NCBI RefSeq assembly: GCF_020736365.1
Contig: NZ_CP085989.1
Span: forward strand, 1-31,981
Length of the DNA stretch: 31,981 bases
Direction: 5' to 3'
Origin: Clostridium sp. M62/1
GTDB taxonomy: Bacteria; Bacillota; Clostridia; Lachnospirales; Lachnospiraceae
How positions within the stretch are numbered: the first letter of the stretch is position 1; the number at the start of each line of letters is the position of its first letter. Made by a program: the position numbers and the translations under genes. Of the stretch, positions 3,618-28,481 are shown in pieces. Below the pieces are notes generated by a model. The model saw nothing but the letters and a program-made list of their open reading frames with translations, did not search any database and had not been told where the DNA came from.

Positions 3618-3625
3618 AAACCCTC

Positions 3626-4387
3626 CTATCTGCTATGCCCTATATCATGCGTTTTACTGTGTTCCTGTTTTCTCAATGCGTCCTGCACTTTTGTTTTCAA
3701 AGCCTCTCTCCTTTCGGAAAACCCACCTTTTGTTGGTGCTTTTTTCATCTGTTCCATGCCATTGCCGCCCTCTGTCTTTTCTGCGGCTTTCTCGGCTCTC
3801 TTTTCGTCATAATAACCCGATTTTACAAGCCGCATATATTTATCTTCTGTATTGGCTAAATCCCTTAATTCTTGGCTCTGTGGGGTCTTATCGTCCTTGC
3901 GCTGGCTGTTTTCTTCCTTGCGCCGTGTTTCCTCTTTCAGACGTTCTTCCCTCGCTGGCTCCTGTTCCTGCCGCTGGCTGTCCTCTCTCTGCTGTCTTTC
4001 CTGCTTACGGCGTTCTTCCTGTGCCCTCTGCTCCTGTCTGCGCCTTTCCTCTTGGCGGCGTTGCTCGTCCTGTCTGCGCTGTTCTTCCTGCCGCTGGCTG
4101 TCCTGTCGGCGTTGCTCGTCCTGCATACGGCGTATTTCCTGCCGCTGGCGTTCTTCTGCTAAGGCTCGCTCGGATAACTGGCGGCTCTCTACGGCTTGTT
4201 GCTCCAAACGCTGACGGTCATTCCTTGCGGCTTCTTCCTGTCTGTTCTGTTCACTCATAATCTCCAAAAGCTCCTTTCGTCTCTTTCTGTGTAGCCACTT
4301 CCACCAAACAGGTAAAAACAACATCATCAGAAAGATTATTATAACCGTGTAGTTTTCCGTCCTTTTCTCACTCCTTTCTGTCCTCAC
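3626..4387 (-). CDS. Membrane-anchored coiled-coil protein, Gln/Arg/Glu-rich
   Basis: A 253-aa protein of unknown function. One hydrophobic segment lies near residues 14-31, then a positively charged stretch, then a long low-complexity region (about 45-165) made of near-repeats such as RRQDEQRRQEE, which should form a long helix or coiled coil, and a hydrophilic tail. It is immediately upstream of the coupling protein fragment with 8 bases between, so it probably belonged to the same mobilization operon. The start shown is GTG; an inner start at MSEQNRQ (residue 44) after AAAGGAG would give a soluble form without the membrane segment. The GTG sits inside a CTCACGGTGAG palindrome (4383-4393). 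Without a search I cannot assign a family; a MobB-like or structural role is inference only. Confidence 0.7.
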   Translation of the reverse strand: MRTERSEKRTENYTVIIIFLMMLFLPVWWKWLHRKRRKELLEIMSEQNRQEEAARNDRQRLEQQAVESRQLSERALAEERQRQEIRRMQDEQRRQDSQRQEEQRRQDEQRRQEERRRQEQRAQEERRKQERQQREDSQRQEQEPAREERLKEETRRKEENSQRKDDKTPQSQELRDLANTEDKYMRLVKSGYYDEKRAEKAAEKTEGGNGMEQMKKAPTKGGFSERREALKTKVQDALRKQEHSKTHDIGHSR

Positions 4388-4393
4388 GGTGAG
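4383..4393. promoter_or_regulatory. CTCACGGTGAG palindrome at a gene start
   Basis: Eleven-base palindrome around a central G that overlaps the GTG start of the 253-aa gene. The core TCACGGTGA recurs at 7801-7809, 7824-7832 (complement form) and 8575-8583. A possible operator; function unproven. Confidence 0.4.
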
Positions 4394-4431
4394 TAAGTGT
4401 AAATGAAATATTTTATTTACTGTATATATAT

Positions 4432-4473
4432 TATATAACTTATGTAATGTATTGTCAATATATAAGTTATATA
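4432..4473. promoter_or_regulatory. AT-rich inverted repeat, shared operator-like site A
   Basis: Perfect 12-bp arms TATATAACTTAT (4432-4443) and ATAAGTTATATA (4462-4473). The 16-mer ATATATAAGTTATATA at 4458-4473 occurs identically upstream of parA (7702-7717). It lies between the divergent 253-aa gene and the secreted protein gene. Likely a binding site for a plasmid DNA-binding protein, possibly the RHH partner of ParA (inference). Confidence 0.55.
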
Positions 4474-4593
4474 TTTTTTTCTATATGCACAATTTTTTAC
4501 AATATTTTCCATTTTTTTAGTGACATTTTATGTACAATGTGTTATGTTAAGATTGTAAATTATTACAGTTTCACGGAAAGGGCGGTATTGCTT

Positions 4594-5445
4594 ATGATTA
4601 AAAAGCACTTTAAGAAACTCGTCAGTGTTGCTCTTACCGCTGTCATGGCTTTAGGGATGACAACAACTGCCTTTGCAAACGAAAAAGACACGCTTAATCT
4701 TGATGCCGCACTTATGGAAAAAGGGTATCCTCAAATTGTTCTTGATACAATGGACGAAGATACCAAAATGGATATTTATAACGAGGGAGACATTGCGTTC
4801 TGTGGTGCTGTAATTACCTATTATGATGAAAACAGTGGTACTTATTCAGAAATCGATGTCAATGAAGATGGAACTTATATTGCACCAAGAGGGCAAATCT
4901 CTACATCAGACCTTTCTTTAAGTTTCACTTATTCAAGAAGCCCTGCAGCCAAGAACACAAAACTTTCTTACATCAAAGTTACTTACAATTATAACTGGCT
5001 TAATCTTCCGTTTTTCCGCTGGCAAGACCCTACTTCTGTTTCATGGGATGACAGCAAATTTCAGATGACGGATAATAGCTTTTCTAAAGTTGATAAGTAT
5101 GATGGCTATGTGATTGGTCCAAATGGAGAGCTTTTAGGACCTTATACAAACCAAACTCATTCTTCTGAAAATGGTTATGCCAACGCAAGTAATGCTGGCG
5201 TTTCTTGGTATGCTGACTTAAAAGGTTATATTGGAGTTCAACCGACTAAATTATATGGAAGTGGCACATTCAAACTTGCTCCAAAATCAACAACTACCAG
5301 CGGTTCAACAACTCTGTATGGTCACTATGTTCACCCAAAAGCAGAATTAGGGCTTAGTGTTAATGTTTCATCTTATGGTAGCTTCTCCATTTCCGGTGGT
5401 AGCAACTATGATGAGCGTGGTTCTCAAAAAACAATATCTTGGTAA
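4594..5445 (+). CDS. Secreted protein of unknown function
   Basis: A 283-aa protein with a clear signal peptide: basic n-region MIKKHFKK, a hydrophobic core, and a likely signal peptidase I site after TTTAFA (about residue 28). The mature part is about 255 aa, rich in Tyr, Ser, Thr, Asn and Trp, without Cys-rich or LPXTG-like anchoring signals, and ends in a beta-prone Gly/Ser stretch and a terminal Trp. The frame is open further upstream to 4447, but ATG 4594 is preceded by a purine-rich AAAGGGCGG and starts a proper signal peptide, so I prefer it. It is the only plus-strand gene in the maintenance half and has its own terminator. I do not recognise the family. A bacteriocin-like or surface role is speculation. 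Confidence 0.8.
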   Translation: MIKKHFKKLVSVALTAVMALGMTTTAFANEKDTLNLDAALMEKGYPQIVLDTMDEDTKMDIYNEGDIAFCGAVITYYDENSGTYSEIDVNEDGTYIAPRGQISTSDLSLSFTYSRSPAAKNTKLSYIKVTYNYNWLNLPFFRWQDPTSVSWDDSKFQMTDNSFSKVDKYDGYVIGPNGELLGPYTNQTHSSENGYANASNAGVSWYADLKGYIGVQPTKLYGSGTFKLAPKSTTTSGSTTLYGHYVHPKAELGLSVNVSSYGSFSISGGSNYDERGSQKTISW

Positions 5446-5474
5446 AAAAAAGGAGGGGAATCCCCTCCTTTTTT
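5446..5474. terminator. Bidirectional terminator between convergent genes
   Basis: Perfect 13-bp arms AAAAAAGGAGGGG and CCCCTCCTTTTTT around a 3-base loop directly after the stop of the secreted protein gene. The A and T runs make it work on both strands. The opposing 48-aa gene ends at 5473, within the right arm. Confidence 0.9.
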
Positions 5475-5619
5475 ACTCGTCTTTTTTATTCTCATTTTGA
5501 TAAATAAGAAACGCCCCTATAATACTAATTGATACTACTACTCCAATTCCGTGATTAAAAAATGATAACCATGTACCTACCCCTACACTTAATATAAATG
5601 CAATAATCGCTTTTCCCAT
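5473..5619 (-). CDS. Small membrane protein, 48 aa
   Basis: Encodes MGKAIIAFILSVGVGTW and onward, ending NENKKDE. Two hydrophobic stretches (about 4-18 and 26-40) with a short NHG loop and a charged tail suggest a small two-pass or hairpin membrane protein. The ATG follows AGAAAGGAAAAAGATT, a usable ribosome binding site. It faces the secreted protein gene across a shared terminator. An immunity-like role for the secreted protein is possible but unsupported beyond position. No family recognised. Confidence 0.6.
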   Translation of the reverse strand: MGKAIIAFILSVGVGTWLSFFNHGIGVVVSISIIGAFLIYQNENKKDE

Positions 5620-5658
5620 AATCTTTTTCCTTTCTCATTTTGAAAATTTAATTTTGCC

Positions 5659-6318
5659 TTATATCTCGGCTTTTTCATCTAAAAAGCTCTGATACTCCTG
5701 CCAATAGTCAAGGACTTTTTTCATTTCTTCCTCAAATGTACCGTTCTTATATTCCTTTTTCTGCTCGGTATATTCGTTCCAGTATTCCGAAAGTGTCTGT
5801 TTGTCTGCTTCAACTTCTTCTCGCCAATCAGATATAACCGTTCTTTCTTCCTGTTCCCATTCTTCTTTACTGGAATAACAAGGCGTTCCCTTTCCGTTAG
5901 TGAGGTCTTTCCATGTGTAGGTTCTTCCACCCCTGCCTTTCATCACGCCGCTTGCAAGTGCTTCTTCGCTGGTCTGTATATTTTCTTCGGTACTCTTTAT
6001 ATTTTCCCATGCACCTATAACTTCATCAAGTCCACCCCACTCAATCAGATACCTTAAAAAAGTGAGGTCGGGGAACATTCCAAACCAGCAACGCTCAAAC
6101 CACTGTTCCGCATACATTCTTTCATCAGAACCGTTACTATATGTTCCGCATACTAAATCACCGATAAAATTCTCTATCAGCTCCCCCACGGTCAAACCGT
6201 GTGCCGCCGCCTTTTCAGAAATACGCTTTACATCAGCGTCCGATAATTTGACTTCGATTGTTCTCGATCTGATTGTTTCAATTTCTTCTTGCTGTTGTCC
6301 TGCCATACCTACCACCAT
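5659..6318 (-). CDS. Plasmid protein with RHH-like N-terminal region
   Basis: A protein of 219 aa, or 215 aa if it starts at the second Met (6306). Residues about 20-58 (IEVKLSDADVKRISEKAAAHG and onward) look like a ribbon-helix-helix or CopG-type DNA-binding segment: a beta strand followed by two helices. The rest is acidic, Trp-rich and largely helical (TYTWKDL, then EEWEQEER, then a Glu/Lys-rich tail) with no motif I recognise. Its start overlaps the stop of the upstream 74-aa gene by about 10 bases (TGGTGGTAG region), so the two are translationally coupled. The block lies downstream of parA and its partner. A role in plasmid maintenance or regulation is inference. Confidence 0.65.
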   Translation of the reverse strand: MVVGMAGQQQEEIETIRSRTIEVKLSDADVKRISEKAAAHGLTVGELIENFIGDLVCGTYSNGSDERMYAEQWFERCWFGMFPDLTFLRYLIEWGGLDEVIGAWENIKSTEENIQTSEEALASGVMKGRGGRTYTWKDLTNGKGTPCYSSKEEWEQEERTVISDWREEVEADKQTLSEYWNEYTEQKKEYKNGTFEEEMKKVLDYWQEYQSFLDEKAEI

Positions 6319-6533
6319 TCCCCCTTATCGTTATAGTGCCACCATTTGCCGCTTTCGTACTCGATACAGAAGTTCCCCTCAAAGTCAAACCACGCCTTTA
6401 CAGGCTCGCCCTCTCCCCATTCTTCAAAGGCTTCTTTATGCCTGGCATAATTCGCCCTGGCTAAGTTCTCCATATCCTCACGAACACGCTTGTACTCTGC
6501 GATTGTCTTTGTTCCCTTTATTACCGTATTCAT
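6309..6533 (-). CDS. Small conserved-looking plasmid protein, 74 aa
   Basis: Starts MNTVIKGTKTIAEYKRVRED and ends in the Trp-rich KWWHYNDKGEWW. The first half is a charged helix; the second half (KAWFDFEGNFCIEYESGKWW) looks like a small beta sheet. It overlaps the next gene by about 10 bases, so they form one operon. Upstream lies an AT-rich site (6570-6604) of the same type as that before parA and rep. No function assigned. Confidence 0.6.
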   Translation of the reverse strand: MNTVIKGTKTIAEYKRVREDMENLARANYARHKEAFEEWGEGEPVKAWFDFEGNFCIEYESGKWWHYNDKGEWW

Positions 6534-6553
6534 CGCCGCACCTCGCTTTCCAT

Positions 6554-6604
6554 GTTATTGCTATTATGCAAGTTATATATATCGCATAATATACATAACT
6601 TATG
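6554..6604. promoter_or_regulatory. Shared operator-like site B plus GTTATTGCTATTATG element
   Basis: The 15-mer GTTATTGCTATTATG (6554-6568) also occurs as an inverted pair at 8506-8552. Directly after it lie AAGTTATATATA (6570-6581) and TATACATAACTTATG (6590-6604), an imperfect inverted repeat of the same AAGTTATATA type found at sites A and C. The site sits between the 74-aa gene and the RHH gene, next to parA. Candidate operator or centromere-like site. Confidence 0.5.
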
Positions 6605-6608
6605 CCTG

Positions 6609-6905
6609 TTATTCAGTTTTGATTTTATCGTACTCTTTCAGCTTTCCAGCGTTTGCGGCTACATAATCGGCTATCAATTCCGACACTATATCACTTGCGC
6701 TCTGACGGTTCACATAGGCAATTTTCTGTAAAGCTCCGTAACTGCTCGGATAAAGAGCAAGGCTAACACGCTTTTTTGTTTCTCTCTCAACTGGCGGTCT
6801 GCCCTTTCCTGCTGGCTTATCCGCTTTCTTCTCGTCCTCTGTTGCTCCTGCTCCTATAATCGACTTAAACGCCGCTTCTTGGTCAAATTTTGCCTTTCCT
6901 GCCAT
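6609..6905 (-). CDS. RHH DNA-binding protein, probable ParA partner
   Basis: A 98-aa basic protein in the position of a ParB-type partner. The N-terminal part is Lys-rich and disordered-looking (ADKPAGKGRPPVERETKKR), then residues about 44-85 have a strand (RVSLALYP) followed by helices (SYGALQKIAYVNRQSASDIV, then SELIADYVAANAG), as in ribbon-helix-helix proteins. Its ATG overlaps the parA stop by one base (TAATG), so the two are coupled. In type Ib partition systems a small RHH protein binds the centromere and represses the par promoter; the AT-rich palindromes upstream of parA are natural targets (inference). Confidence 0.75.
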   Translation of the reverse strand: MAGKAKFDQEAAFKSIIGAGATEDEKKADKPAGKGRPPVERETKKRVSLALYPSSYGALQKIAYVNRQSASDIVSELIADYVAANAGKLKEYDKIKTE

Positions 6906-7669
6906 TACTCCTGCTCTCCTTTCAGAAATTCCTCTATAAAGGCTTTGTAGTCCTCTGATACCGTTGATTTTTCTGCATAGTCAAATATATCTACCCTGTT
7001 CGCCTGTGCTTCTTCCACTGCTACTGCAGAACGGATATAGGTCTTATAAATCGGTGCAGAAATATACTGGCTCAACTGCTCCGTAAGTTCCTTTATCTGC
7101 TTGCTGATATTTGCCCTCGGATTGAAACGAGTAAACAAAATACCCGTTATCTTCACATTCGGGTTGCAATACTTCTGTACGCTCTTTACAGTTTCATTAA
7201 GCTGGTTAATTCCCGTAGTCGCAAATATTCCTGCCGTTGTAGGTATCAGAATATCACTTGCCGCTGTAAATGCGTTGACCGTCAGCACACCCAACGAGGG
7301 CGGCGTATCAACAATGATATAATCATAGTTATCCGATACGGCGGCAATCGCTTCTTTCAGCCTATGTTCCTTTCCTGTCTGTGAAAGCTCCTGTTCTGCT
7401 CCTGCAAGCATGATATTTGAGGGGATTATATCATATCCACCGTTCATGTGCTGGATCGTTTCCTCTGCGGTCACTTCCCGTTTCATCAGCTCATAAATAG
7501 TCGGTACGTTATAATTCACCGAACCGCAAGCAGAAGAAAGATTTCCCTGTGGGTCAAGGTCAATTCCCAGTACTTTATATCCCTTATCTGCTAACCCTGC
7601 GGTCAAGGCTTGTGAGGTTGTCGTTTTACCAACGCCCCCTTTTTGATTAGCCACAGCTACAATTCTCAT
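6905..7669 (-). CDS. parA: ParA-family partition ATPase
   Basis: A 254-aa ATPase that moves plasmid copies apart on the nucleoid. It starts MRIVAVANQKGGVGKTTTSQ: the deviant Walker A KGGVGKTT is at residues 10-17, the Walker A' region GIDLDPQGN at 35-43, and the DTPPSLG Walker B/switch II region at 121-127. It lacks a long N-terminal HTH extension, as expected for the small ParA (type Ib/Soj-like) class. The frame is open upstream to 7804, but ATG 7669 follows AAAGGAG at 9 bases and begins the conserved domain. The RHH gene follows with a one-base overlap. A near-perfect 36-bp palindrome lies about 28 bases upstream. Confidence 0.93.
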   Translation of the reverse strand: MRIVAVANQKGGVGKTTTSQALTAGLADKGYKVLGIDLDPQGNLSSACGSVNYNVPTIYELMKREVTAEETIQHMNGGYDIIPSNIMLAGAEQELSQTGKEHRLKEAIAAVSDNYDYIIVDTPPSLGVLTVNAFTAASDILIPTTAGIFATTGINQLNETVKSVQKYCNPNVKITGILFTRFNPRANISKQIKELTEQLSQYISAPIYKTYIRSAVAVEEAQANRVDIFDYAEKSTVSEDYKAFIEEFLKGEQE

Positions 7670-8390: not shown

Positions 8391-8414
8391 ATACAACACT
8401 CCTTTCTTACTTAT

Positions 8415-8443
8415 AGTATATACAAGAACAAAGAAAAAGTAAA
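8415..8443 (-). promoter_or_regulatory. Promoter of the toxin-antitoxin operon
   Basis: On the minus strand -35 TTTACT (8438-8443) and -10 TATACT (8415-8420) with a 17-base spacer, 24 bases upstream of the antitoxin ATG. The -35 lies inside an inverted repeat AGTAAAGAA (8438-8446) and TTCTTTACT (8461-8469), a likely autorepression site. Confidence 0.65.
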
Positions 8444-8504
8444 GAATATTTCTTTAATTTTTCTTTACTATTTATAGTATTTCCACCTCTCATATATTCA
8501 TACA

Positions 8505-8552
8505 GCATAATAGCAATAACTTATTTTCTGTATTTATGTTATTGCTATTATG
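8505..8552. repeat. 15-bp inverted repeat CATAATAGCAATAAC
   Basis: Perfect arms CATAATAGCAATAAC (8506-8520) and GTTATTGCTATTATG (8538-8552) around 17 AT-rich bases, between the rep 3' end and the toxin-antitoxin promoter. There is no T-tract, so a terminator is doubtful. The same 15-mer occurs a third time at 6554-6568. Confidence 0.65.
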
Positions 8553-8570
8553 TATATTATTCGTTTGAAT

Positions 8571-8587
8571 TTAATCACGGTGATTAA
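8571..8587. promoter_or_regulatory. Palindrome TTAATCAC-G-GTGATTAA over the rep stop codon
   Basis: Perfect 17-base palindrome around a central G, spanning the last codons and stop of rep. Its core TCACGGTGA matches the palindromes at 4383-4393 and 7793-7840. Confidence 0.45.
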
Positions 8588-10088
8588 CTCGGTCAACTCG
8601 CCCTATTCTCTGCAAATTCTCACAGCGAGAAAACACCGCCCGTAATTCTTCCGTGTCCAATCCTGCCGCTACGATCGGCTCTGCTGGTTTTAACTGCGTT
8701 TTTTCTTTTGCCGCTTCATAATATTTGTAAACTGTCTTTTTATCAAGTCCCGTGCCCCTTATAACATCACACTTTCTTGCCTCGGGATTTTCCCTCAAAA
8801 ATGCTTCAACCACACTTTCTGCACTCGGTCTACCATTTTTGTTTCTCCACTCACCATTCGGGTAATCACTATCACGCAACAACGTAATTCTTTTTATATG
8901 CTCTGATTGTTTTCGTCCATTTCTTTTATTTCTCTCAATATGCAAATCTGTTAGATACTCAATATCTGAAATCTTAAAATTGTAATACTCCTTGCTATAT
9001 ACCTCTAATGCGCTCTCCACATCTTCTTCCGTCAATGGATTGTCATGCTCTATCAGTTTCAGCTTATCAAACACTTCATACATATCCGCTTTCAGCTTCT
9101 CTTTCGGCACATCACACTTACAAGCATAAATGACAAGACACATCAGATAATAGTATCTGTGACCGCCCGTAATCTCCCCTGCTCGGTTCAGCCACCAATT
9201 ATACAGAGCGAAGCCCTGCTTGCCTTTTATGTCCCATTTCTTTTGCCGCTTGTTCTTCTCTACGACTACACGCTGATACCATTCGGGATAACTTTCCTTA
9301 GCCTGCTCCCTTGACATCTTAGATGGGGCAAAACGCCGATTCACATCAACCCTATTCTGCGGCTTCACATAGGAATTAAGATACTCTAACGTTACCCTAC
9401 CGCCAATCTGAAACGCTTTCACTTCAACATCATACTTCGGGTTAATGCTCCCCACCATACGAAAACCTTGAACGATTGACTGATACTGCACTTTATCTTT
9501 CTTGGAAGTCGATTTATAGTCCCACATTCTAAAAGTAAGGTCATATTTCAAAGACTTCATTTGCAACTTGATATTCGGAAAAAGGTCTATCGCTTCTTCA
9601 AAAACGTAATACACATGAAGTCCCGTGCCACTCACTACAAGAAAAGTTGGAACAGGAAGTGTGCGAATATTTTCCGCTGGTTGTCCAAATCTTAACAACA
9701 AATTTTTTAATTCATACAATCCAACCCCGTCAAGGTCAATCGCCAGCGCATACATACGTTGAGCGTTCTCTAAATTATTCGCCCTACCTCGATACGCAAT
9801 CCCACTACACAAAGTAGATGGGTTCTGCTCCACATAATTTATATAATCTTCTTTCCATGTATCTGAAAGCATTATGCGACGCCTTAATCTTCTCCTTGTC
9901 CCACTGTCTTTTTCATCGGTATAAAGATAAACTGCATTAGGCTTTTCATAGTGACTACACTGCTCCCCCTGCTTCTGATTATCGGGGAAAATATAATCAT
10001 AAAAAGAGCAACCGTCCACCTCATCATAAAGCACATTCAAAACTTCCAATACTTCTATATACTCCTGCGGTGGTTCTTTCTTAGCCAT
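8571..10088 (-). CDS. Plasmid replication protein, AEP primase-polymerase type
   Basis: A 505-aa protein that probably starts plasmid replication. It shows the archaeo-eukaryotic primase pattern: an acidic DxD pair in YALAIDLDGVG (Asp118, Asp120), the second motif in VVSGTGLHVYYVFE (Ser153, His158), and QGFRMVGS (207-214). The middle part is helical; residues about 440-470 (NPEARKCDVIRGTGLDKKTV) look like a helix-turn-helix for DNA binding. The ATG follows AAGGAAG at 9 bases. It is the only complete replication gene in the plasmid unit. Four iteron-like 19-mers lie upstream beyond a 74-aa gene, and an AT-rich operator-like site lies directly in front. A 17-bp palindrome overlaps its stop codon. 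The function as Rep is inferred from motifs and context. Confidence 0.8.
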   Translation of the reverse strand: MAKKEPPQEYIEVLEVLNVLYDEVDGCSFYDYIFPDNQKQGEQCSHYEKPNAVYLYTDEKDSGTRRRLRRRIMLSDTWKEDYINYVEQNPSTLCSGIAYRGRANNLENAQRMYALAIDLDGVGLYELKNLLLRFGQPAENIRTLPVPTFLVVSGTGLHVYYVFEEAIDLFPNIKLQMKSLKYDLTFRMWDYKSTSKKDKVQYQSIVQGFRMVGSINPKYDVEVKAFQIGGRVTLEYLNSYVKPQNRVDVNRRFAPSKMSREQAKESYPEWYQRVVVEKNKRQKKWDIKGKQGFALYNWWLNRAGEITGGHRYYYLMCLVIYACKCDVPKEKLKADMYEVFDKLKLIEHDNPLTEEDVESALEVYSKEYYNFKISDIEYLTDLHIERNKRNGRKQSEHIKRITLLRDSDYPNGEWRNKNGRPSAESVVEAFLRENPEARKCDVIRGTGLDKKTVYKYYEAAKEKTQLKPAEPIVAAGLDTEELRAVFSRCENLQRIGRVDRVNHRD

Positions 10089-10101
10089 AGTACAACACTT
10101 C

Positions 10102-10156
10102 CTTATTTACATGATATATATTATATATCTTATTTACATTATATAACATAAATAAG
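10102..10156. promoter_or_regulatory. AT-rich site upstream of rep, site D
   Basis: Direct repeats CTTATTTACAT at 10102 and 10129, and an inverted pair CTTATTTA (10129-10136) and TAAATAAG (10149-10156). The stretch TTATTTAC followed by ATATATATTATATA strongly resembles the sequence left of site A (4413-4438). Probably holds the rep promoter and its operator. Confidence 0.5.
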
Positions 10157-10174
10157 AAAAATGCAAGTTCCTTT

Positions 10175-10399
10175 TTACCGTTCTTCTACCTGCGTATCAA
10201 GATAATAAGTACATAAAGTCCTACTTACAGCCGTAGGGTGCATTTCCAAACCAACTGCACCAACCACCAGCACATAACCACTTTCCAACCATTGGTTCTC
10301 TGTCTTGAACCGTTCCCTCAACTCCACAGGCAAATGATTTTTTACAGGCAACCCATCATAGGAAGATAAATAAGTAACATCAAAACCCTCAATCCTCAT
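10175..10399 (-). CDS. Small protein of unknown function between iterons and rep
   Basis: A 74-aa protein, MRIEGFDVTYLSSYDGLPVK to CTYYLDTQVEER. The ATG at 10399 lies 9 bases after GAGAGGAG, a strong ribosome binding site; the frame is open upstream to 10510 but those codons run through an iteron-like repeat. Mixed helix and strand, no membrane segment or recognised motif. It lies between the iteron cluster and rep on the same strand, so a copy-control or replication accessory role is plausible but unproven. Confidence 0.6.
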   Translation of the reverse strand: MRIEGFDVTYLSSYDGLPVKNHLPVELRERFKTENQWLESGYVLVVGAVGLEMHPTAVSRTLCTYYLDTQVEER

Positions 10400-10452
10400 G
10401 TATAAAAACTCCTCTCTGCTGAATAATATATAATAGCCCCACACCCTACTTG

Positions 10453-10634
10453 GGGGACTTAGATTATCAATGAAGTATTTCCACCTTTTAGTATATGAGT
10501 AATGCCCCACTTCGTCAAGGGGGACTTAGATTATCAATGAAGTATTTCCACCTTTTTTTGAAGTCATAGGGGACTTAGATTATCAATAGGTTTTTTTACC
10601 TCTATTTAGGTCATAGGGGACTTAGATTATCAAT
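10453..10634. repeat. Four iteron-like 19-mers, candidate replication origin
   Basis: GGGGACTTAGATTATCAAT occurs exactly at 10453, 10520, 10569 and 10616, all in the same orientation, spaced 67, 49 and 47 bases. The first two copies share a longer 37-base unit ending TTTCCACCTTTT. AT-rich sequence follows the last copy. Direct repeats of this size upstream of a rep gene are typical of iterons bound by Rep. Two variant copies lie at 12313 and 12409. Confidence 0.7.
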
Positions 10635-10790
10635 ATATTTTATTTACCTATGTCACCTGTGCCGCATATTGCCCTATAAAGCCGTTTTCTCGCTCTGTAT
10701 GTAGTTTTTCCCATCTTCTAATAAATCATTCGTCTATGCGGCTTACACGGCTTTTAACGGGTATCTCGCCGCTGATGGGTGAGAAATGCA

Positions 10791-10827
10791 GTCAAGGGCG
10801 GCTCCTGCCGCTTGCCTTGCCCTTGAC
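10791..10827. repeat. Inverted repeat GTCAAGGGC with inner GCGGC stem
   Basis: Arms GTCAAGGGC (10791-10799) and GCCCTTGAC (10819-10827), with an inner GC-rich pair (GCGG and CCGC). The 11-mer CAGTCAAGGGC at its left edge recurs in the oriT candidate region at 14854-14864. It could be a replication or transfer structure, or a terminator without T-tract. Confidence 0.55.
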
Positions 10828-10852
10828 GAAATGGAACGCCGCACAATAAGAA

Positions 10853-10889
10853 AAGGGGAAGTTGCTCACTCTTTGAGTAACTTCCCCTT
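10853..10889. terminator. Strong terminator-like hairpin
   Basis: Arms AAGGGGAAGTTGCTCA (10853-10868) and TGAGTAACTTCCCCTT (10874-10889), 16 pairs with one G-T, 5-base loop. On the minus strand it lies downstream of the coiled-coil ORF and before the iterons. Confidence 0.75.
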
Positions 10890-11008
10890 GATTACTTTTC
10901 TATACTGCCCCTGTGAGAGCGTCACGGCTTATTAGAGCAGTCTTATTTCCCCCATTAAGGAAATACACCATGAAAACCACCAAACGGCTCTATGGGGCAA
11001 ATACCGTG

Positions 11009-11980
11009 TTATATACCTCTGTCACGGTCATGTGTCCTGTTCCGTTCCCTCGTCTGTGCTTCTTGCTTCAATGCAGTGTCAAGCTGGCGGCGTGCTTCGG
11101 CTTCGGCTTGGTAATACTGCAATCGTCCCATGGTTGGAATTTCTTTCTGCTGTCCCATACGGTCAAGTATTTCCTGCCGTTGGTCTGCCGGTATCTGCTT
11201 CGCCGCTTCGAGAAATGCCGCTTTTACTTCTTCGGCTCTCTCCTTTGCCCCTCTGTTCTGCATAGCCGCCTTTGCCCTGTTCTGCTCCTGTGCCGCCACG
11301 CTTCTTTTTTCTTTTACCGCTTCATCTGCCTTGGACGGTTCGGACACACCAAGCGCACCCAGCTTGTCAAGATTACTCCTGCGCAATCTCTCAAAATTAT
11401 CAATTTTGTTTTGCAGTTCTTTTTTCTCCCTGCCTTTGAAGATACCCAACTTGTCCCTTTCTTCCTGCAAGCTCTTTATAGTTCGGCTCTGTTCCGATAT
11501 GGTCTTTGAAATACTCTCTATTTCGTTTGCCTGTCTTTCATAGATCGGGTTCGGCTGATAGCTGGTACGCTCTGCACTCTGTACCATGGCTTTTACAAAT
11601 TCACTGCGCAACGCTGAAAGTTTTCTTGCCATTTCTTCTGCATAGGCAGTATCAATTTTCGGTGCGTCCTGCTTTGGTTGCTCCTGCCGCATTATACTTT
11701 CACGCCTTGCGACAAAACCGCTCTGTGGTTCTGCTGTTTTTGCCCTTTCTCTTATTGCTTCAAGACTGCTCTCTATTTTATCCCGTATGAATGAAATATC
11801 TCCTATCAGCTTGTCTTTATGATAATCAAAATATGGAACTTTACGCCCATCACATTCTATTGTTCTTTCTGCACTGGCTGTGGTTGGCTCTAAACGCTTC
11901 GCTATGTTATAGGTTTTGAGCATTTCAGTTTGCAATCTCAAAAGCACATTTTTATTTTCTTCTGTGGCTTTTGGTAACAT
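11009..11980 (-). pseudogene. Coiled-coil protein, probably 5'-truncated
   Basis: An ORF of 323 aa, highly charged and helical throughout (for example IRDKIESSLEAIRERAKTA and RTIKSLQEERDKLGIFKGRE), ending in basic QTRERNRTHDRDRG. The first ATG (11980) has no ribosome binding site. The same frame stays open for 40 further codons upstream, back to a TAG at 12101-12103, without any ATG, GTG or TTG. The upstream part overlaps the end of the 69-aa Rep-like remnant in another frame. I read this as the 3' part of a larger gene, possibly a mobilization protein, whose 5' end was lost in a deletion. Translation from 11980 at low level cannot be excluded. Confidence 0.6.
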
Positions 11981-12062
11981 TCGTTCAATTTTTGCAATAT
12001 GTTCATGCTGTTTATTCCATTCAATATCTTCTCTGATATTTATAATTTCTTTTTGTGTCTGC

Positions 12063-12272
12063 TTAGTCAGAATATCTATTGTTTGCCTTATCGTTTTCGA
12101 CTATAGTTATAATGCCATTTGCTTTTCCGTCCTCAAAATGCCCAGCTCTCTCAAAACTTCCCTCCGGGAAAACAGCCCGATAAAACTCTTTCGGCTTCAC
12201 TTCCTCAAAAAACTGCCCAAGCCATTCATTTTTCAGCTTATACAACTGCTTTTCAGTCGGTTTTTTTGCCAT
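12063..12272 (-). pseudogene. N-terminal remnant of a second Rep/primase-like protein
   Basis: A 69-aa ORF, MAKKPTEKQLYKLKNEWLGQ and onward. Residues 30-54 (FYRAVFPEGSFERAGHFEDG and then KANGI) line up with residues 29-53 of the plasmid's own Rep (FYDYIFPDNQKQGEQCSHYE, then KPNAV): FY, FP, H, E, K and N fall at matching places. The ORF then ends abruptly, before any AEP catalytic motif. It starts after GGTGG and has two iteron-like repeats just upstream, as the intact rep has four. I infer a broken second replication gene; the alternative is a small independent protein. Confidence 0.6.
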
Positions 12273-12301
12273 AAGTCCACCACCTTTCTTCTCCCCTCTA
12301 A

Positions 12302-12490
12302 AACACCTATAGGGGGCTTATATTATCAATATATTTTATTTTACCTTTTTGACCTTTCAAAAAAGGGCTATTTTTCTCTCCCTTTCCCCACCCCTAAAAA
12401 CACCTATAGGGGGCTTATATTATCAATATATTTTATTTTACCTTTTTGACCTCTTAAAAAAGGGCGATTTTTCTCTCCCTTTTCCCTACC
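12302..12490. repeat. Two tandem 96-bp units with iteron-like 19-mers
   Basis: Two near-identical units spaced 96 bases, each starting ACACCTATAGGGGGCTTATA and containing GGGGGCTTATATTATCAAT (12313-12331 and 12409-12427). These differ from the four copies at 10453-10634 in only two of 19 positions. The second unit is where the two plasmid copies diverge. Confidence 0.75.
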
Positions 12491-12502
12491 AGTATAGCAC
12501 TA

Positions 12503-12736
12503 CTATTTTTTCTTCAAAAAATAAAAAATTATCGCTACTATCAACATCACAACACCTATCGCAATAAGCAAGATGCTGACAAGAACACTATTCAACTTTC
12601 CTGCGACAAATACCGAGGTAGGACCATCTACACCTCCGATTATAGCAATAGCATTATTATTCATCTTCAATGCAACACCCACAATAACAGATATTATTCC
12701 AACAACACCAGCAACGATTCCTAATATTTTTTTCAT
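12503..12736 (-). CDS. Small two-helix membrane protein with OadB-like motif
   Basis: A 77-aa protein: membrane helix (about 4-23), a loop with IIGGVDGPTSVFVAGK (residues 32-47), a second helix (about 51-73) and a KKK tail. The loop resembles the conserved GGADGPT motif of the beta subunit of sodium-pumping decarboxylases (OadB/GcdB), but the 8-11 helix body of that family is absent, so pump activity is not expected. The ATG lies 8 bases after AAAGGAG. It is the last gene of the mobilization operon, 43 bases after the MobB-like gene. Function unknown. Confidence 0.75.
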   Translation of the reverse strand: MKKILGIVAGVVGIISVIVGVALKMNNNAIAIIGGVDGPTSVFVAGKLNSVLVSILLIAIGVVMLIVAIIFYFLKKK

Positions 12737-12779
12737 TGACTAATCTCCTTTCTCAACCTTCCGATTTGTCGATTTCTTT

Positions 12780-13352
12780 TTACTTACCAAGCATACCATA
12801 TAACAGCATAAGAAACACTAAAATATTACAGACCATACCGCCCCAAAACAGGTACAGCTTTAAGCCCTCATATCTGAAAAAGCTGTTCTTACTTTCCTCC
12901 AGCTCCCGGATCTTTTGCTTCATCACGCTCGTAAGTGTATCAGACTGCTTCTCAAGAAGCTTTGTAGCCCTCTGTATAGCCTCTATATTCGCCTGTAACG
13001 CCTTTCTAACCTCTTGGACGGTGTTTTCCTTAACCTCATCTTTCAAACTCCCAATCTCGCCCGATATAGCGTCTTGAAGCAATTCGTTGCTGTTCTTCAG
13101 CAGCTCTACGCTCTGCTTCAGCTCGCTGATGAGCTTCCTGTTCTGCTCTGCGTCTCTCTGCCTGTTCTGCTCTGCCCTTACTTGTTCTTGATTTGACTGC
13201 TTCATCAATTCCTCGCAGTTCTCGCTCGACATCGCCAACGCTTCTTTGAGCAGACTGTTTTCCAGCTCTGTCCGGCTCTGTCGGTTTAACTCTTGAAGCT
13301 GCTCTCTTGGACTGCTCTGCTTCTGCTGTTCGTGCATTTCTCTCAAACTCAT
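12780..13352 (-). CDS. MobB-like coiled-coil protein with C-terminal membrane helix
   Basis: A 190-aa protein from MSLREMHEQQKQ, chosen because ATG 13352 lies about 10 bases after GAAAGGAG; an earlier in-frame ATG at 13373 is inside that site. Residues about 10-160 are polar and helical (coiled coil: ELKQSVELLKNSNELLQDAI), and the end LYLFWGGMVCNILVFLMLLY is one membrane helix. The first 105 codons overlap the relaxase gene out of frame (13036-13352). ColE1-type mob loci also nest mobB within the relaxase gene, and MobB proteins can anchor the relaxase at the membrane, so a similar role is likely. Confidence 0.75.
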   Translation of the reverse strand: MSLREMHEQQKQSSPREQLQELNRQSRTELENSLLKEALAMSSENCEELMKQSNQEQVRAEQNRQRDAEQNRKLISELKQSVELLKNSNELLQDAISGEIGSLKDEVKENTVQEVRKALQANIEAIQRATKLLEKQSDTLTSVMKQKIRELEESKNSFFRYEGLKLYLFWGGMVCNILVFLMLLYGMLGK

Positions 13353-14145
13353 GCTCCATGCTCTCCTTTCCAAAATCCATATTGTAGTATTTTTCCAGCT
13401 TGTTATCCCTGATTTTACAAGCCTTTTCTCCTGCCTGTTCCCTGGCTAAGTCGGTATATGTGATGTACTTGTGGCTGTCCTGCCAGTCTACGCCGTACCC
13501 TCTTTCATTCATCATCCGGATAAAGGTTTCCCGGCTGGTCGCTGTTTCCTTACAGTCCAGCACCGCAAGGGCAATATCCTGCACATAGCTTTTGACCTTT
13601 CCCTGCTCTGCCTGTTTCAAAAGCTGGTAGGTGTCTTTGCTCCATGCCACCGTTTCTTCCCGGACTTCTCCAGCAAAGGTCTTTCCTTTCTCCGGCACAT
13701 GCAAGCCCTGTTCCCGGCTCTGCTCGTTGCACCGTTCCTTTAGGTCTTTAAGGTCGTGCTTACTCCATTGGAGCTTATGACCGTCCTCATAATTTACGGA
13801 ATTGACAATAAAATGCGTGTGTATATGCCCCTTGTCTATATGCGTGGCTATCAGAACTTCATGCCCTTTCCATGCCTTTGTATGCTCTGCCAGCTCGACA
13901 GCGTTCTTGTGAGCCTGCTCCGGGGTTATTTTCTCGTCCTCATGGTAGGATTGCACATAATGCTTATAGGTTCTTCCATCCGTCTTGCCCCACAGCTCCT
14001 TTGTGGCTTGCATTTCTTCCTTGACCGTCTCCGGCTCACAATGCAGACCGCTGACAAGCTTCTCCTCTGTCTTTTCTTTTTTTGTCACATAATCTATGGC
14101 GTGCCCTATGCCCGCCTTTGAAGATACCGCCTTAATGACTGCCAT
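13036..14145 (-). CDS. mobA: MobP-type relaxase (mobilization nuclease)
   Basis: A 369-aa relaxase that nicks oriT and leads the strand into the recipient. The N-terminal relaxase domain has Tyr19 in AIDYVTKKEK as candidate nucleophile and the metal-binding three-His motif in IATHIDKGHIHTHFIVNSVN (His102, His107, His109, His111, with Asp104 and Asn115). The C-terminal 110 residues are charged and low complexity (AEQAERRRAEQEAHQRAEAE). It overlaps the end of mobC by 40 bases, and its own 3' third is overlapped by the MobB-like gene in another frame. Length is typical of short mobilizable plasmids. The precise MOB class (P or V-like) would need a profile search. Confidence 0.9.
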   Translation of the reverse strand: MAVIKAVSSKAGIGHAIDYVTKKEKTEEKLVSGLHCEPETVKEEMQATKELWGKTDGRTYKHYVQSYHEDEKITPEQAHKNAVELAEHTKAWKGHEVLIATHIDKGHIHTHFIVNSVNYEDGHKLQWSKHDLKDLKERCNEQSREQGLHVPEKGKTFAGEVREETVAWSKDTYQLLKQAEQGKVKSYVQDIALAVLDCKETATSRETFIRMMNERGYGVDWQDSHKYITYTDLAREQAGEKACKIRDNKLEKYYNMDFGKESMEHEFERNARTAEAEQSKRAASRVKPTEPDRAGKQSAQRSVGDVERELRGIDEAVKSRTSKGRAEQAERRRAEQEAHQRAEAERRAAEEQQRIASRRYIGRDWEFER

Positions 14146-14426
14146 ACTTTGTTCAGCTCCTCTCCATGCTTCCGCACTTCCGCTTCACTCGGCAACATTC
14201 CCCCCTCATTACACCGCTTTGCTATCTGGTTGAGGTTGTTCCCTATCCGTTTCAGTTCCGGGATAAGTTCCTTGATACCGTCCGTATTCACGATTTGCTT
14301 CTCCAGCACACAGGAAAGGATATATTCCTGCTGGTTCTTTCCACTCTCTGAAATCTTCTCCTGTAGCTGCTGGTATTCTTCTTCACTTACCCGGAATGAT
14401 AGCTGCTTTGGTCTTGTCTTGTTCAT
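14106..14426 (-). CDS. mobC: MobC relaxosome accessory protein
   Basis: A 106-aa protein from MNKTRPKQLSFRVSEEEYQQ. The N-terminal part reads as a ribbon-helix-helix DNA-binding fold, and ELKRIGNNLNQIAKRCNEGG (residues 57-76) is the MobC family signature. It binds near oriT and helps the relaxase open the DNA. I chose ATG 14426, 4 bases after the stop of the 53-aa gene, with GGAG 10 bases before; an upstream in-frame ATG at 14465 lies inside that gene. It overlaps the relaxase gene by 40 bases. Confidence 0.9.
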   Translation of the reverse strand: MNKTRPKQLSFRVSEEEYQQLQEKISESGKNQQEYILSCVLEKQIVNTDGIKELIPELKRIGNNLNQIAKRCNEGGMLPSEAEVRKHGEELNKVWQSLRRYLQRRA

Positions 14427-14430
14427 ACCC

Positions 14431-14592
14431 TTACCACTCCATATCCATGACATCAAGTAGGTCAAAGAAACGCTCCAGCGTCTTATTTTCCTTTTCTGCC
14501 GGATTCTGTTTTACATATTTATCAATTACTTTCATCAGCTCCTGCACCTCGTATCTGTACTCAAACTGAATTTTATCCATATCTTTTTTCAT
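14431..14592 (-). CDS. Small protein at the head of the mob operon, 53 aa
   Basis: Starts MKKDMDKIQFEYRYEVQELM and ends FFDLLDVMDMEW. Acidic and fully helical-looking. The ATG follows GAGAGG in a good position and the stop TAA lies only 4 bases before the mobC start, so it is translationally coupled. No family assigned; a relaxosome or regulatory role is suggested by position only. Confidence 0.65.
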   Translation of the reverse strand: MKKDMDKIQFEYRYEVQELMKVIDKYVKQNPAEKENKTLERFFDLLDVMDMEW

Positions 14593-14629
14593 GCCTTTGA
14601 CCTCTCTTTCTTCGGTGCTACCACCGTCA

Positions 14630-14930
14630 TATTATGAGCCTTCCGGCTCGTTTAAAAGGGGGATTGAAGGGGGGCTTGCCACCCTCACAAGTTCTAAAGT
14701 GGTAACACTTTAGGAAACTTGCAATATATCCGCTACACATATTATAGCATGATAGACACCCTATATCAAGCGGATATATTCGTGCGTATATTCTGCCAAG
14801 AATATAGTGGAGCTTACTTCCTCTTGGGCGACTTTGGAAGTGTAGGAGGGAGACAGTCAAGGGCTTGTTTTTTATCTGCAGTATGAGCTTCGGCTTGCCG
14901 ATCAGCGAGTACAGCAGATAAAAAATGGTC
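14630..14930. other. Hairpin-rich candidate oriT region
   Basis: This is most of the geneless stretch 14593-15024. It lies directly upstream of the mob operon and contains, in order: GAGCC-TTCC-GGCTC (14636-14649); CTAAAGTG-GTAA-CACTTTAG (14694-14713); arms AATATATCCGCT and AGCGGATATATT (14723-14780); TATATTCT-GCCA-AGAATATA (14787-14806); CAGTCAAGGGC (14854-14864); and arms TTTTTTATCTGC and GCAGATAAAAAA (14868-14925). Such clustered inverted repeats beside mobC and relaxase genes are typical of oriT. The nick site cannot be named from sequence alone. Confidence 0.55.
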
Positions 14931-15024
14931 GCAGACCACCCTTTACTTTCTTCCGCCGGAACGGACAATGTAGGACGGATTTTGCGGACATTCAAAATAA
15001 AAAAGAATGTGGAGGTAACAGACA

Positions 15025-15399
15025 ATGGCAAAATCATTATTTGAGGAACTGGGCGGCAAATACGAAAGGCAAGGGGATTATTTGATACCGTGCTTAACTG
15101 TACCCGCCGAAGAAGAACAGGCAATAGGCATCTGGGGGCAACGGCATTTAGATTATCTAAAACAGTACCGTAAAGTTACATACACCAATCTTCTTACAAG
15201 CGGCAGGCTAAACGCCTACCTTGCCGACATCAACAGACAGGCACAGGAACGCTTTGAAAGGCTCATAGAGGGTATGAAACAGGCACAGGGCATAACGGAA
15301 CAGCTAAAGGCAGAAAACGCCTTAGAATGGACAGGATGCCTCAATAACATAAGGGCTTGTGCGAGGGAGATTGTGGAAAAGGAAATTATTTTTGCATAA
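15025..15399 (+). CDS. tnpV: TnpV-family transposon-encoded protein
   Basis: A 124-aa protein, MAKSLFEELGGKYERQGDYL and onward, with IGIWGQRHLDYLKQYRKVTY in the middle and RFERLIEGMKQAQGITEQLK near the end. I recognise this as TnpV, a protein of unknown function carried by Tn4451-like elements and often found beside resistance genes in Clostridia. Start after GTGGAGGTAACAGACA. It stands alone here without the recombinase of those elements, so it is probably a left-over marking how the tet region was acquired. A terminator follows and then the tet promoter. Confidence 0.85.
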   Translation: MAKSLFEELGGKYERQGDYLIPCLTVPAEEEQAIGIWGQRHLDYLKQYRKVTYTNLLTSGRLNAYLADINRQAQERFERLIEGMKQAQGITEQLKAENALEWTGCLNNIRACAREIVEKEIIFA

Positions 15400-26390: not shown

Positions 26391-26443
26391 GTATAAAAAC
26401 TCCTCTCTGCTGAATAATATATAATAGCCCCACACCCTACTTG

Positions 26444-26625
26444 GGGGACTTAGATTATCAATGAAGTATTTCCACCTTTTAGTATATGAGTAATGCCCCA
26501 CTTCGTCAAGGGGGACTTAGATTATCAATGAAGTATTTCCACCTTTTTTTGAAGTCATAGGGGACTTAGATTATCAATAGGTTTTTTTACCTCTATTTAG
26601 GTCATAGGGGACTTAGATTATCAAT
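26444..26625. repeat. Four iteron-like 19-mers, second copy
   Basis: GGGGACTTAGATTATCAAT at 26444, 26511, 26560 and 26607, as in the first copy. Confidence 0.7.
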
Positions 26626-26781
26626 ATATTTTATTTACCTATGTCACCTGTGCCGCATATTGCCCTATAAAGCCGTTTTCTCGCTCTGTATGTAGTTTTT
26701 CCCATCTTCTAATAAATCATTCGTCTATGCGGCTTACACGGCTTTTAACGGGTATCTCGCCGCTGATGGGTGAGAAATGCA

Positions 26782-26818
26782 GTCAAGGGCGGCTCCTGCC
26801 GCTTGCCTTGCCCTTGAC
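26782..26818. repeat. GTCAAGGGC inverted repeat, second copy
   Basis: Same as 10791-10827, within the geneless stretch 26626-26999. Confidence 0.55.
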
Positions 26819-26843
26819 GAAATGGAACGCCGCACAATAAGAA

Positions 26844-26880
26844 AAGGGGAAGTTGCTCACTCTTTGAGTAACTTCCCCTT
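26844..26880. terminator. Strong terminator-like hairpin, second copy
   Basis: Same 16-bp stem as at 10853-10889. Confidence 0.75.
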
Positions 26881-26999
26881 GATTACTTTTCTATACTGCC
26901 CCTGTGAGAGCGTCACGGCTTATTAGAGCAGTCTTATTTCCCCCATTAAGGAAATACACCATGAAAACCACCAAACGGCTCTATGGGGCAAATACCGTG

Positions 27000-27971
27000 T
27001 TATATACCTCTGTCACGGTCATGTGTCCTGTTCCGTTCCCTCGTCTGTGCTTCTTGCTTCAATGCAGTGTCAAGCTGGCGGCGTGCTTCGGCTTCGGCTT
27101 GGTAATACTGCAATCGTCCCATGGTTGGAATTTCTTTCTGCTGTCCCATACGGTCAAGTATTTCCTGCCGTTGGTCTGCCGGTATCTGCTTCGCCGCTTC
27201 GAGAAATGCCGCTTTTACTTCTTCGGCTCTCTCCTTTGCCCCTCTGTTCTGCATAGCCGCCTTTGCCCTGTTCTGCTCCTGTGCCGCCACGCTTCTTTTT
27301 TCTTTTACCGCTTCATCTGCCTTGGACGGTTCGGACACACCAAGCGCACCCAGCTTGTCAAGATTACTCCTGCGCAATCTCTCAAAATTATCAATTTTGT
27401 TTTGCAGTTCTTTTTTCTCCCTGCCTTTGAAGATACCCAACTTGTCCCTTTCTTCCTGCAAGCTCTTTATAGTTCGGCTCTGTTCCGATATGGTCTTTGA
27501 AATACTCTCTATTTCGTTTGCCTGTCTTTCATAGATCGGGTTCGGCTGATAGCTGGTACGCTCTGCACTCTGTACCATGGCTTTTACAAATTCACTGCGC
27601 AACGCTGAAAGTTTTCTTGCCATTTCTTCTGCATAGGCAGTATCAATTTTCGGTGCGTCCTGCTTTGGTTGCTCCTGCCGCATTATACTTTCACGCCTTG
27701 CGACAAAACCGCTCTGTGGTTCTGCTGTTTTTGCCCTTTCTCTTATTGCTTCAAGACTGCTCTCTATTTTATCCCGTATGAATGAAATATCTCCTATCAG
27801 CTTGTCTTTATGATAATCAAAATATGGAACTTTACGCCCATCACATTCTATTGTTCTTTCTGCACTGGCTGTGGTTGGCTCTAAACGCTTCGCTATGTTA
27901 TAGGTTTTGAGCATTTCAGTTTGCAATCTCAAAAGCACATTTTTATTTTCTTCTGTGGCTTTTGGTAACAT
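27000..27971 (-). pseudogene. 5'-truncated coiled-coil protein, second copy
   Basis: Identical to 11009-11980. Confidence 0.6.
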
Positions 27972-28053
27972 TCGTTCAATTTTTGCAATATGTTCATGCT
28001 GTTTATTCCATTCAATATCTTCTCTGATATTTATAATTTCTTTTTGTGTCTGC

Positions 28054-28263
28054 TTAGTCAGAATATCTATTGTTTGCCTTATCGTTTTCGACTATAGTTA
28101 TAATGCCATTTGCTTTTCCGTCCTCAAAATGCCCAGCTCTCTCAAAACTTCCCTCCGGGAAAACAGCCCGATAAAACTCTTTCGGCTTCACTTCCTCAAA
28201 AAACTGCCCAAGCCATTCATTTTTCAGCTTATACAACTGCTTTTCAGTCGGTTTTTTTGCCAT
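28054..28263 (-). pseudogene. Rep-like N-terminal remnant, second copy
   Basis: Identical to 12063-12272. Confidence 0.6.
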
Positions 28264-28292
28264 AAGTCCACCACCTTTCTTCTCCCCTCTAA

Positions 28293-28481
28293 AACACCTA
28301 TAGGGGGCTTATATTATCAATATATTTTATTTTACCTTTTTGACCTTTCAAAAAAGGGCTATTTTTCTCTCCCTTTCCCCACCCCTAAAAACACCTATAG
28401 GGGGCTTATATTATCAATACAGTTTATTGCACATTTTTGACCTCTTAAAAAAGGGCTGGTTTTCTCTCCCTTTTCCCTACC
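28293..28481. repeat. Tandem 96-bp units with iteron-like 19-mers, second copy (diverged)
   Basis: As at 12302-12490, but the second unit carries eight substitutions at 28420-28459 downstream of its 19-mer (28400-28418), which itself is unchanged. Confidence 0.75.

Follow-up and report, generated by a model that had tools for sequence, protein, structure and literature searches.

We analyzed contig NZ_CP085989.1 of Clostridium sp. M62/1 (assembly GCF_020736365.1), referred to here as the window, and a short directional DNA element in it that recurs upstream of genes for a plasmid replication protein (Rep). The window is the whole contig of 31,981 bases, one of the two that make up the 3.92-Mb assembly. 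The contig is a ~15,991-bp plasmid in the form of a tandem dimer, with 99.6% of positions agreeing at an offset of 15,991 bases. In the first unit, the minus strand carries rep1 (8571..10088), an intact gene whose 505-aa product shows a predicted archaeo-eukaryotic primase (AEP) fold and a C-terminal helix-turn-helix in a structure model. A 74-aa open reading frame (ORF) without a PHROG match (10175..10399, minus strand) lies between rep1 and a first set of repeats. Beyond these are the C-terminal part of a backbone relaxase-like gene (11009..11980, minus strand), a 69-aa remnant of a second rep gene (rep2; 12063..12272, minus strand), and a second set of repeats.

The 19-mer GGGGRCTTAKATTATCAAT was found with 0 mismatches on the plus strand at 10453, 10520, 10569, and 10616 (A/G variant) and, as set 2, at 12312 and 12409 (G/T variant); the chance expectation with at most three mismatches was 0.02. 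A sequence-only reading of this DNA had reported six same-orientation copies at two loci, each preceding a Rep or Rep-like ORF. All six copies were recovered, with set 2 starting at 12312 instead of 12313, and both sets are upstream, in the sense of transcription, of the minus-strand ORFs for the 505-aa Rep and the 69-aa product. The same six copies recur in the second dimer unit (26444-26625 and 28303-28418), so that the window holds twelve copies, six per plasmid. All 12 matches in the 3.92-Mb assembly (at most two mismatches) were on the window contig and 0 on the other contig.

The 19-mer is the right half of an asymmetric element of ~38 bp, which reads AAAAKGTRNAAAAAMTNTATTGATAATATAAGCCCC in the rep sense; a direct-repeat search in the window returned a 38-nt unit. 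A profile of the rep-proximal copies of 28 Rep clusters, for which ATTGATAA itself served as the search word, revealed conservation from about -19 to +19 around this core. In the rep sense, AAAA at -18 to -15 is followed by a G/T-rich block, an A run, and then ATTGATAATATAAGCCCC. Read in this sense, all element copies in the window lie on the minus strand. The copy nearest rep1 (copy 1.4, 10452..10490; 19-mer 10453-10471) is a full bipartite unit scoring 45.6 bits with a position weight matrix, and is followed with increasing distance by copies 1.3 (10519..10557, 46.6 bits; 19-mer at 10520), 1.2 (10568..10606, 41.8 bits; 19-mer at 10569), and 1.1 (10615..10653, 43.3 bits; 19-mer at 10616). In set 2, copy 2.2, nearest the rep2 remnant (12311..12349; 19-mer at 12312), and copy 2.1 (12408..12446) both score 46.6 bits, and the left half of copy 2.1 differs in unit 2 (28399-28437). 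The second unit carries the same six elements (26443..28437, minus strand).

To follow the element beyond the window, the 19-mer was scanned blindly against one genome each of 84,980 species, which yielded 35 stretches. A Rep of this family lay downstream on the same strand in 25 of them and in four more if the contig is circular (L036, L044, L055, L058), giving 29 of 35; 15 of the 35 stretches belong to a single Rep cluster, that of pCd13_cfrC. Three were cut by the stretch end (L037, L040, L063), and three were without Rep (L032, L039, L042). The reverse test started from loci found via Rep or the 69-aa remnant, with Rep clustered at 80% identity; one member, L089, had been found via its mob segment and shares a positive cluster with the Rep-found L085. 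The core ATTGATAA was present in sense within 1 kb upstream in 20 of 24 Rep clusters, including 20 of the 22 with a hidden Markov model (HMM) score above 200, and antisense in none of the 24. The low-scoring clusters L097 and L098 also had no core upstream. L029, which belongs to a positive cluster, is without the core and has an IS1216-type transposase gene directly upstream. In a Markov control over 33 Rep clusters, the core was observed in 28, against an expected mean of 1.7 and at most 6. Set aside before this count were duplicates of the window and L093, and then nine Rep ORFs (eight without the N-terminus and one with fewer than 100 bases upstream).

Further records showed the same association. 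Four later plasmids all carried the element, namely Veillonella pVJL1 (three copies), pRGI00580 (one), a Waltera plasmid (two), and a plasmid of endosymbiont TC1 (one). A DNA search with set 2 matched 52 plasmid records, of which five were examined: Lactococcus, Enterococcus hirae, and Muribaculaceae plasmids had both the element and Rep (in Lactococcus, Rep matched over part of its length only, with an insertion sequence beside it), and two Leptotrichia plasmids had another initiator and neither the element nor this Rep. Among 117 scored elements from all loci, redundant ones included, 109 were within 1 kb upstream of a Rep start, five were at sequence ends, and three were elsewhere (L042, L100, L107). 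Element and Rep were seen together in Bacillota, in Campylobacterota, and in one plasmid from Bacteroidota, and Rep without the element was additionally seen in Pseudomonadota.

The left half of the element separated Rep-linked from Rep-less matches. Eleven blind 19-mer matches had no Rep (eight viral contigs, L032, L039, and L042), and ten of them scored -23 to -35 bits in the left half, whereas matches linked to Rep or at sequence ends scored +2.7 to +20 bits, with one contig-end copy unscorable. The weight matrix was built partly from loci brought in by the 19-mer scan, though not from the ten matches lacking a left half; the reverse test and the blind 19-mer scan therefore give the fairer counts. 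These results bear out the proposal that the 19-mers belong with rep genes, and a wide occurrence of the 19-mer away from them was not found. The exception, L042, is an Arcobacter contig with a left half of +2.0 bits, in which an orphan staphylococcal/Listeria-type element at ~2515 (plus strand) lies between recombinase-like sequences, as read from the DNA by eye, without Rep; it is perhaps the scar of a lost replicon. The contig L107, labelled viral, has another element core in the same orientation ~55 nt past the rep ORF, and it encodes a second Rep match (score 280 vs 599). Among the IMG/VR contigs that encode this Rep, several (L066-L077) may be plasmids.

Copy number and spacing were examined next to the rep genes. 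In 69 upstream regions, one core match was found in 28, two in 24, three in six, four in two, and none in nine. Start-to-start spacing in the window was irregular (67, 49, and 47 in set 1; 97 in set 2), and 42 spacings between copies ranged from 45 to 120 nt. Whole-plasmid scans found a single copy (at least 12 bits) in pCd13_cfrC, pSA8589, and pRGI00580 (L017, L018, L102), and scans of 16 records and the window monomer placed the clear matches before rep, one noise-level hit aside (13.0 bits, L021). The profile, promoter, and spacing counts exclude three core matches that fall within upstream coding DNA (L018 -715, L030 -802, L057 -731). With one to four copies at irregular spacing, this is not a classical iteron array; the description of the 19-mer as iteron-like thus gave way to a directional unit of ~38 bp, single in some replicons.

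A promoter-like pair with at least 9 of 12 consensus matches preceded an element copy in 20 of 26 loci, where shuffling expects 1.9; eight of these loci had a perfect TTGACA-17-TATAAT. The count covers 26 of the 33 clusters, since five had no element and two had too little DNA before it. The -10 hexamer started 24-32 bases before ATTG in 19 of the 20 loci with such a pair, and this offset predicts that the element starts about where the rep transcript should start. A -10-like hexamer at -36 to -24 was found in 18 of 27 rep-proximal copies vs 6 of 23 distal copies; the distal ones are retained without their own promoter. The promoter-like site of rep1 in the window, TTGACG-17-TATACT (10490..10518, minus strand; 10 of 12 consensus matches), lies between copies 1.3 and 1.4, and its support as a candidate promoter is the same geometry in its relatives. 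A hairpin behind the element (CCCC...GGGG), striking by eye, was rejected as a general feature (mean z -0.63, 8 of 28 below -1).

As the sequence-only reading had held, the intact rep is of AEP type at the level of prediction. The residues D118, D120, and S153/G154/G156/H158 were invariant in 54 aligned Rep members, and we take them to be the AEP acidic pair and histidine motifs. Scoring of 8,000 candidates gave 1,243 relatives of the window Rep, and matches were found in 204 plasmid records, including those of staphylococci, enterococci, Clostridioides, Proteus, Helicobacter, and Campylobacter. In a search over 1,386 genomes, Rep turned up in 8 of 397 at the family level, 4 of 391 at the class level, and 6 of 398 at the phylum level, with the genome of the window included in each count. 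Among the members, only the Rep of pVJL1 came near AEP-TOTE, with a sub-threshold match at E 0.011. PF03090 (Replicase) was not among the matches listed for 10 Rep members at E<=10 (for the Aerococcus Rep, the best 25 of 63) and was also not seen for the window Rep; a genome search with PF03090 gave no signal anywhere, controls included, and is hence uninformative. PriCT_1 was not among the matches listed in Pfam scans of Rep relatives. The plasmid pKKS825, which carries this Rep, has been tabulated with PriCT_1, REP_3, and Rep_1 (PMC6157413). In C. jejuni pTet (L089, 4215-7002), repA belongs to this Rep family, is C-terminally short relative to the profile, and has the element upstream. The relaxase segment between repA and tet(O) is 97.8% identical to window 12764-13765, which suggests a gut Bacillota plasmid as the vehicle by which tet(O) and the DNA around it reached Campylobacter.

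The two repeat sets reflect a mosaic. A segment of ~2.9 kb (12078..14976) holding the rep2 start, both set-2 elements, and a gene with a Pfam Relaxase match is of Roseburia type, with identity of 99.65% over 866 bp and 99.75% over 2033 bp to L034, a 4,531-bp contig of Roseburia inulinivorans. L034 is probably a complete circular plasmid, because the window match runs continuously across its contig ends. The first 63 residues of the 69-aa rep2 remnant are identical to the 451-aa Rep of L034 and the remnant departs from it thereafter, rep2 being cut after codon 63; the resemblance of this ORF to a Rep N-terminus was thus substantiated, as was the suggestion of two related replicons, the second with a truncated rep. 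The spacing of set 2 (97 nt) is the L034 arrangement and is also found in L038. The backbone relaxase-like gene is cut on its N-terminal side at the rep2 junction. Its stretch 11151-11889 has 70.7% DNA identity to part of a 633-aa ORF of L040; it gave no Pfam match, and we presume it to be of MobA/MobL type. L040 also shares several stretches within 3117-7204 and one element, and rep1 is outside what L040 shows. Judging from these matches, the plasmid is a mosaic of an L040-like backbone and an L034-like piece, and has two element sets because a piece of a second plasmid was captured. The junction of rep2 and the relaxase remnant occurred 0 times in viral contigs. The captured segment also carries a 77-aa membrane-like ORF (12503-12736, minus strand) with a IIGGVDGPTSVFV stretch, presumably recalling the beta subunit of a sodium-pumping decarboxylase. 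Another natural fusion of two such replicons is L025 (Flavonifractor plautii plasmid, 21.8 kb), with two related rep - toxin/antitoxin - ATPase modules and two elements in each.

The dimer units differed at 63 positions, eight clustered at 12429-12468 (corresponding to 28420-28459) and 55 after a 1-base shift near 15923 (1-base length difference near 15923 / 31914). The eight clustered differences fall in and beside the left half of copy 2.1, and unit 2 matches the natural variant L038 at all eight. With this agreement, two plasmid variants or a heterodimer seem a likelier source of the differences than random errors of assembly; the dimer as such may still stem from assembly. Pusillibacter faecalis pMM59_02 (L026), whose record is labelled linear, is by annotation largely a tandem dimer like the window contig. 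The plasmid also carries a ParA-like gene, a RelB/YoeB-type pair, a TetM/W/O-family gene, and tet(40). At 4447-5445 (plus strand) there is a 332-aa ORF without a Pfam match, for which an inner start would yield a signal-like N-terminus as read by eye.

The strict orientation, the AEP-like Rep with a DNA-binding domain, the single-copy replicons, and the overlap with the promoter fit an origin and operator site. We therefore favor, with fair though not high confidence, the reading that the element is the cis-acting recognition site of Rep and serves as the replication origin and rep operator of an AEP-type plasmid Rep family; it is probably the place where these plasmids start copying. Rep, with its predicted primase domain and C-terminal helix-turn-helix, would bind at least one element copy in fixed orientation upstream of its own gene and would initiate replication of the plasmid at this site, probably through priming. 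In each replicon, one copy would usually cover ~+1 to +38 behind the predicted rep promoter, so that Rep bound to it would in addition act as a repressor of rep (autoregulation). The origin/operator of the intact replicon, whose activity is suggested by the intact rep1 gene, would be set 1 (10452-10653), and set 2 (12311-12446) would be that of a second, related replicon brought in by the Roseburia-type fragment. A stronger version, in which this one site would make up the whole origin of a large plasmid class, uncharacterised so far and initiated by a primase, with unidirectional, DnaA-free priming by Rep and a promoter that Rep switches off by occupying those bases, appears possible but is held tentatively.

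Several observations weigh against the origin and operator reading. Two of the 22 well-scoring Rep clusters had no core upstream (L068, L086). Five promoter-like sites were found in 10080-12760, where shuffling expects 6.3, so the rep1 promoter candidate alone is no evidence, and set 2 had no promoter with at least 9 of 12 matches at this offset (best 7). No DnaA box (TTWTNCACA) was near the elements, the only one in the monomer being at 15372, and a box within 1 kb was found in 6 of 33 clusters vs 3.5 expected. GC skew, proposed earlier as a check, followed gene direction and did not locate an origin. The AEP fold comes from a model with a mean pLDDT (predicted local distance difference test) of 77 and a pTM (predicted template modelling score) of 0.57. 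The best Foldseek match was RepB' at E 5.4e-3, with none below 0.001, and the window Rep matched no curated AEP family, with 0 Pfam (E<=0.1) and 0 NCBIfam matches.

The strongest competing explanation limits the element to control of the rep promoter, as an operator or copy-control site, and places the origin elsewhere, for example inside or behind rep. The nearly constant position of the element behind a consensus-like promoter (20 of 26 loci) and the second copy ~55 nt behind rep in L107 would suit this; in ColE2-related Pseudomonas replicons, the origin is located inside rep or after it (PMC5304414). However, extra copies without a promoter are kept (18 of 27 proximal vs 6 of 23 distal copies with the hexamer), the orientation never flips (antisense in 0 of 24), which an operator does not need, and even the very small pRGI00580 (3.5 kb) has one copy of at least 12 bits; we regard an operator alone as rather unlikely. 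Another thought is that the element acts as RNA at the beginning of the rep mRNA 5' leader, as a signal in translational control or for a primer RNA; the promoter offset would suit this, since it predicts that transcription begins at about the first bases of the element. Most distal copies, though, have no -10-like hexamer ahead of them, and the element showed no structure beyond shuffled sequence (mean z -0.11), with only a weak tendency in the tract behind it (mean z -0.63). In Rfam, no match at 8400-15100 reached its family threshold; the one at E<=1 was to a plastid untranslated region model, outside the elements. A role as RNA thus appears improbable.

Relaxase, ParA, and toxin-antitoxin genes nearby on these plasmids, the exchange of the segment between plasmids, and the orphan copy between what read by eye as recombinase-like sequences in L042 might instead point to a mobilisation, partition, or recombination site that is near rep by chance. 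Against this, the position of the element ahead of rep does not change with the relaxase type and holds for plasmids typed as non-mobilizable too, and 16 records and the window monomer have their clear matches before rep, which makes such a site very improbable. Least credible of all is that the repeats and the second set are assembly artefacts: the tandem-dimer contig with its 1-base length difference between units could raise this suspicion, but the two-copy, 97-nt arrangement is present in other assemblies (L034, L038), and all eight clustered unit-2 differences agree with L038. A CRISPR (clustered regularly interspaced short palindromic repeats) array does not fit either, judging from the repeats and the gene next to them, with no search made for cas genes: there are 0-4 copies at 45-120 nt start to start, the left halves differ, and the gene behind is rep.

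The proposed origin and operator was compared with known systems. Iteron-controlled theta origins (F, P1, RK2, pSC101) are alike in having direct repeats upstream of rep in one orientation and in that the site probably acts as origin and operator at once. They differ from the present case in that the unit here is bipartite and ~38 bp long, irregularly spaced at 45-120 nt, and single in several plasmids, with no DnaA box near and a Rep of predicted AEP fold; iteron Reps have two winged-helix domains (PMC4980987). In ColE2/ColE3-type plasmids (class C theta), Rep is a plasmid-specified AEP primase that recognises a small origin and makes a primer (PMC4538821, PMC5304414, PMC4980987). As there, one short asymmetric site may suffice here: L017, L018, and L102 each hold one ~38-bp site that Rep would recognise. 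The differences are that PF03090 was not among the matches listed and that the element is upstream of rep. In the way it would work, the present system resembles ColE2-type replication, by analogy. To our knowledge, the single-strand initiation (ssi) sites of RSF1010 RepB' are not in front of a promoter. RSF1010 has a separate helicase RepA and initiator RepC, unlike the plasmids here (PMC4538821, PMC5304414, PMC4980987). Plasmids typed by MOB-suite as rep clusters 133, 282, 338, and 475 (pVJL1, pSA8589/pDB2011, pTRACA73, pTet) all carry this Rep and the element; they are typed apart, and the labels may not refer to this Rep gene. No description of the origins of these plasmids was found in the open literature searched.

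A search for the core strings in 5.39 million open papers gave one match, PMC10213047, on the Culturomica massiliensis / Emergencia timonensis genomes. Its Table 6 lists a 34-bp repeat and two spacers as CRISPR, in a row that names no cas gene. This repeat is the reverse complement of AAAATAGGG-AAATACTGT-ATTGATAATATATGCC, that is, the present element with its left half included, and presumably represents three element copies; other genomes may carry the same false CRISPR call. Viral contigs gave 0 exact matches to the spaced element consensus and 0 to the published 34-bp repeat, and the three viral stretches with a rumen variant of the element were all on contigs already found by Rep. The element was otherwise not described in the open literature searched, which mostly excludes subscription papers, so that earlier descriptions may exist.

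These findings point to a large, largely unstudied plasmid family of gut bacteria that shares an origin-like element, and they account for the CRISPR entry in print. In the window plasmid, the merger of two such replicons can be followed: an intact-looking second element set is left beside a cut rep. The element marks a site at which replication start can be tested, leads one to expect incompatibility among plasmids that are at present typed separately, and as a 38-bp tag could let these plasmids be recognised. If the single-site reading is true, the family would be a Gram-positive counterpart of ColE2-type replication in which origin and operator are merged, and many gut plasmids with different resistance cargo would share one origin tag.

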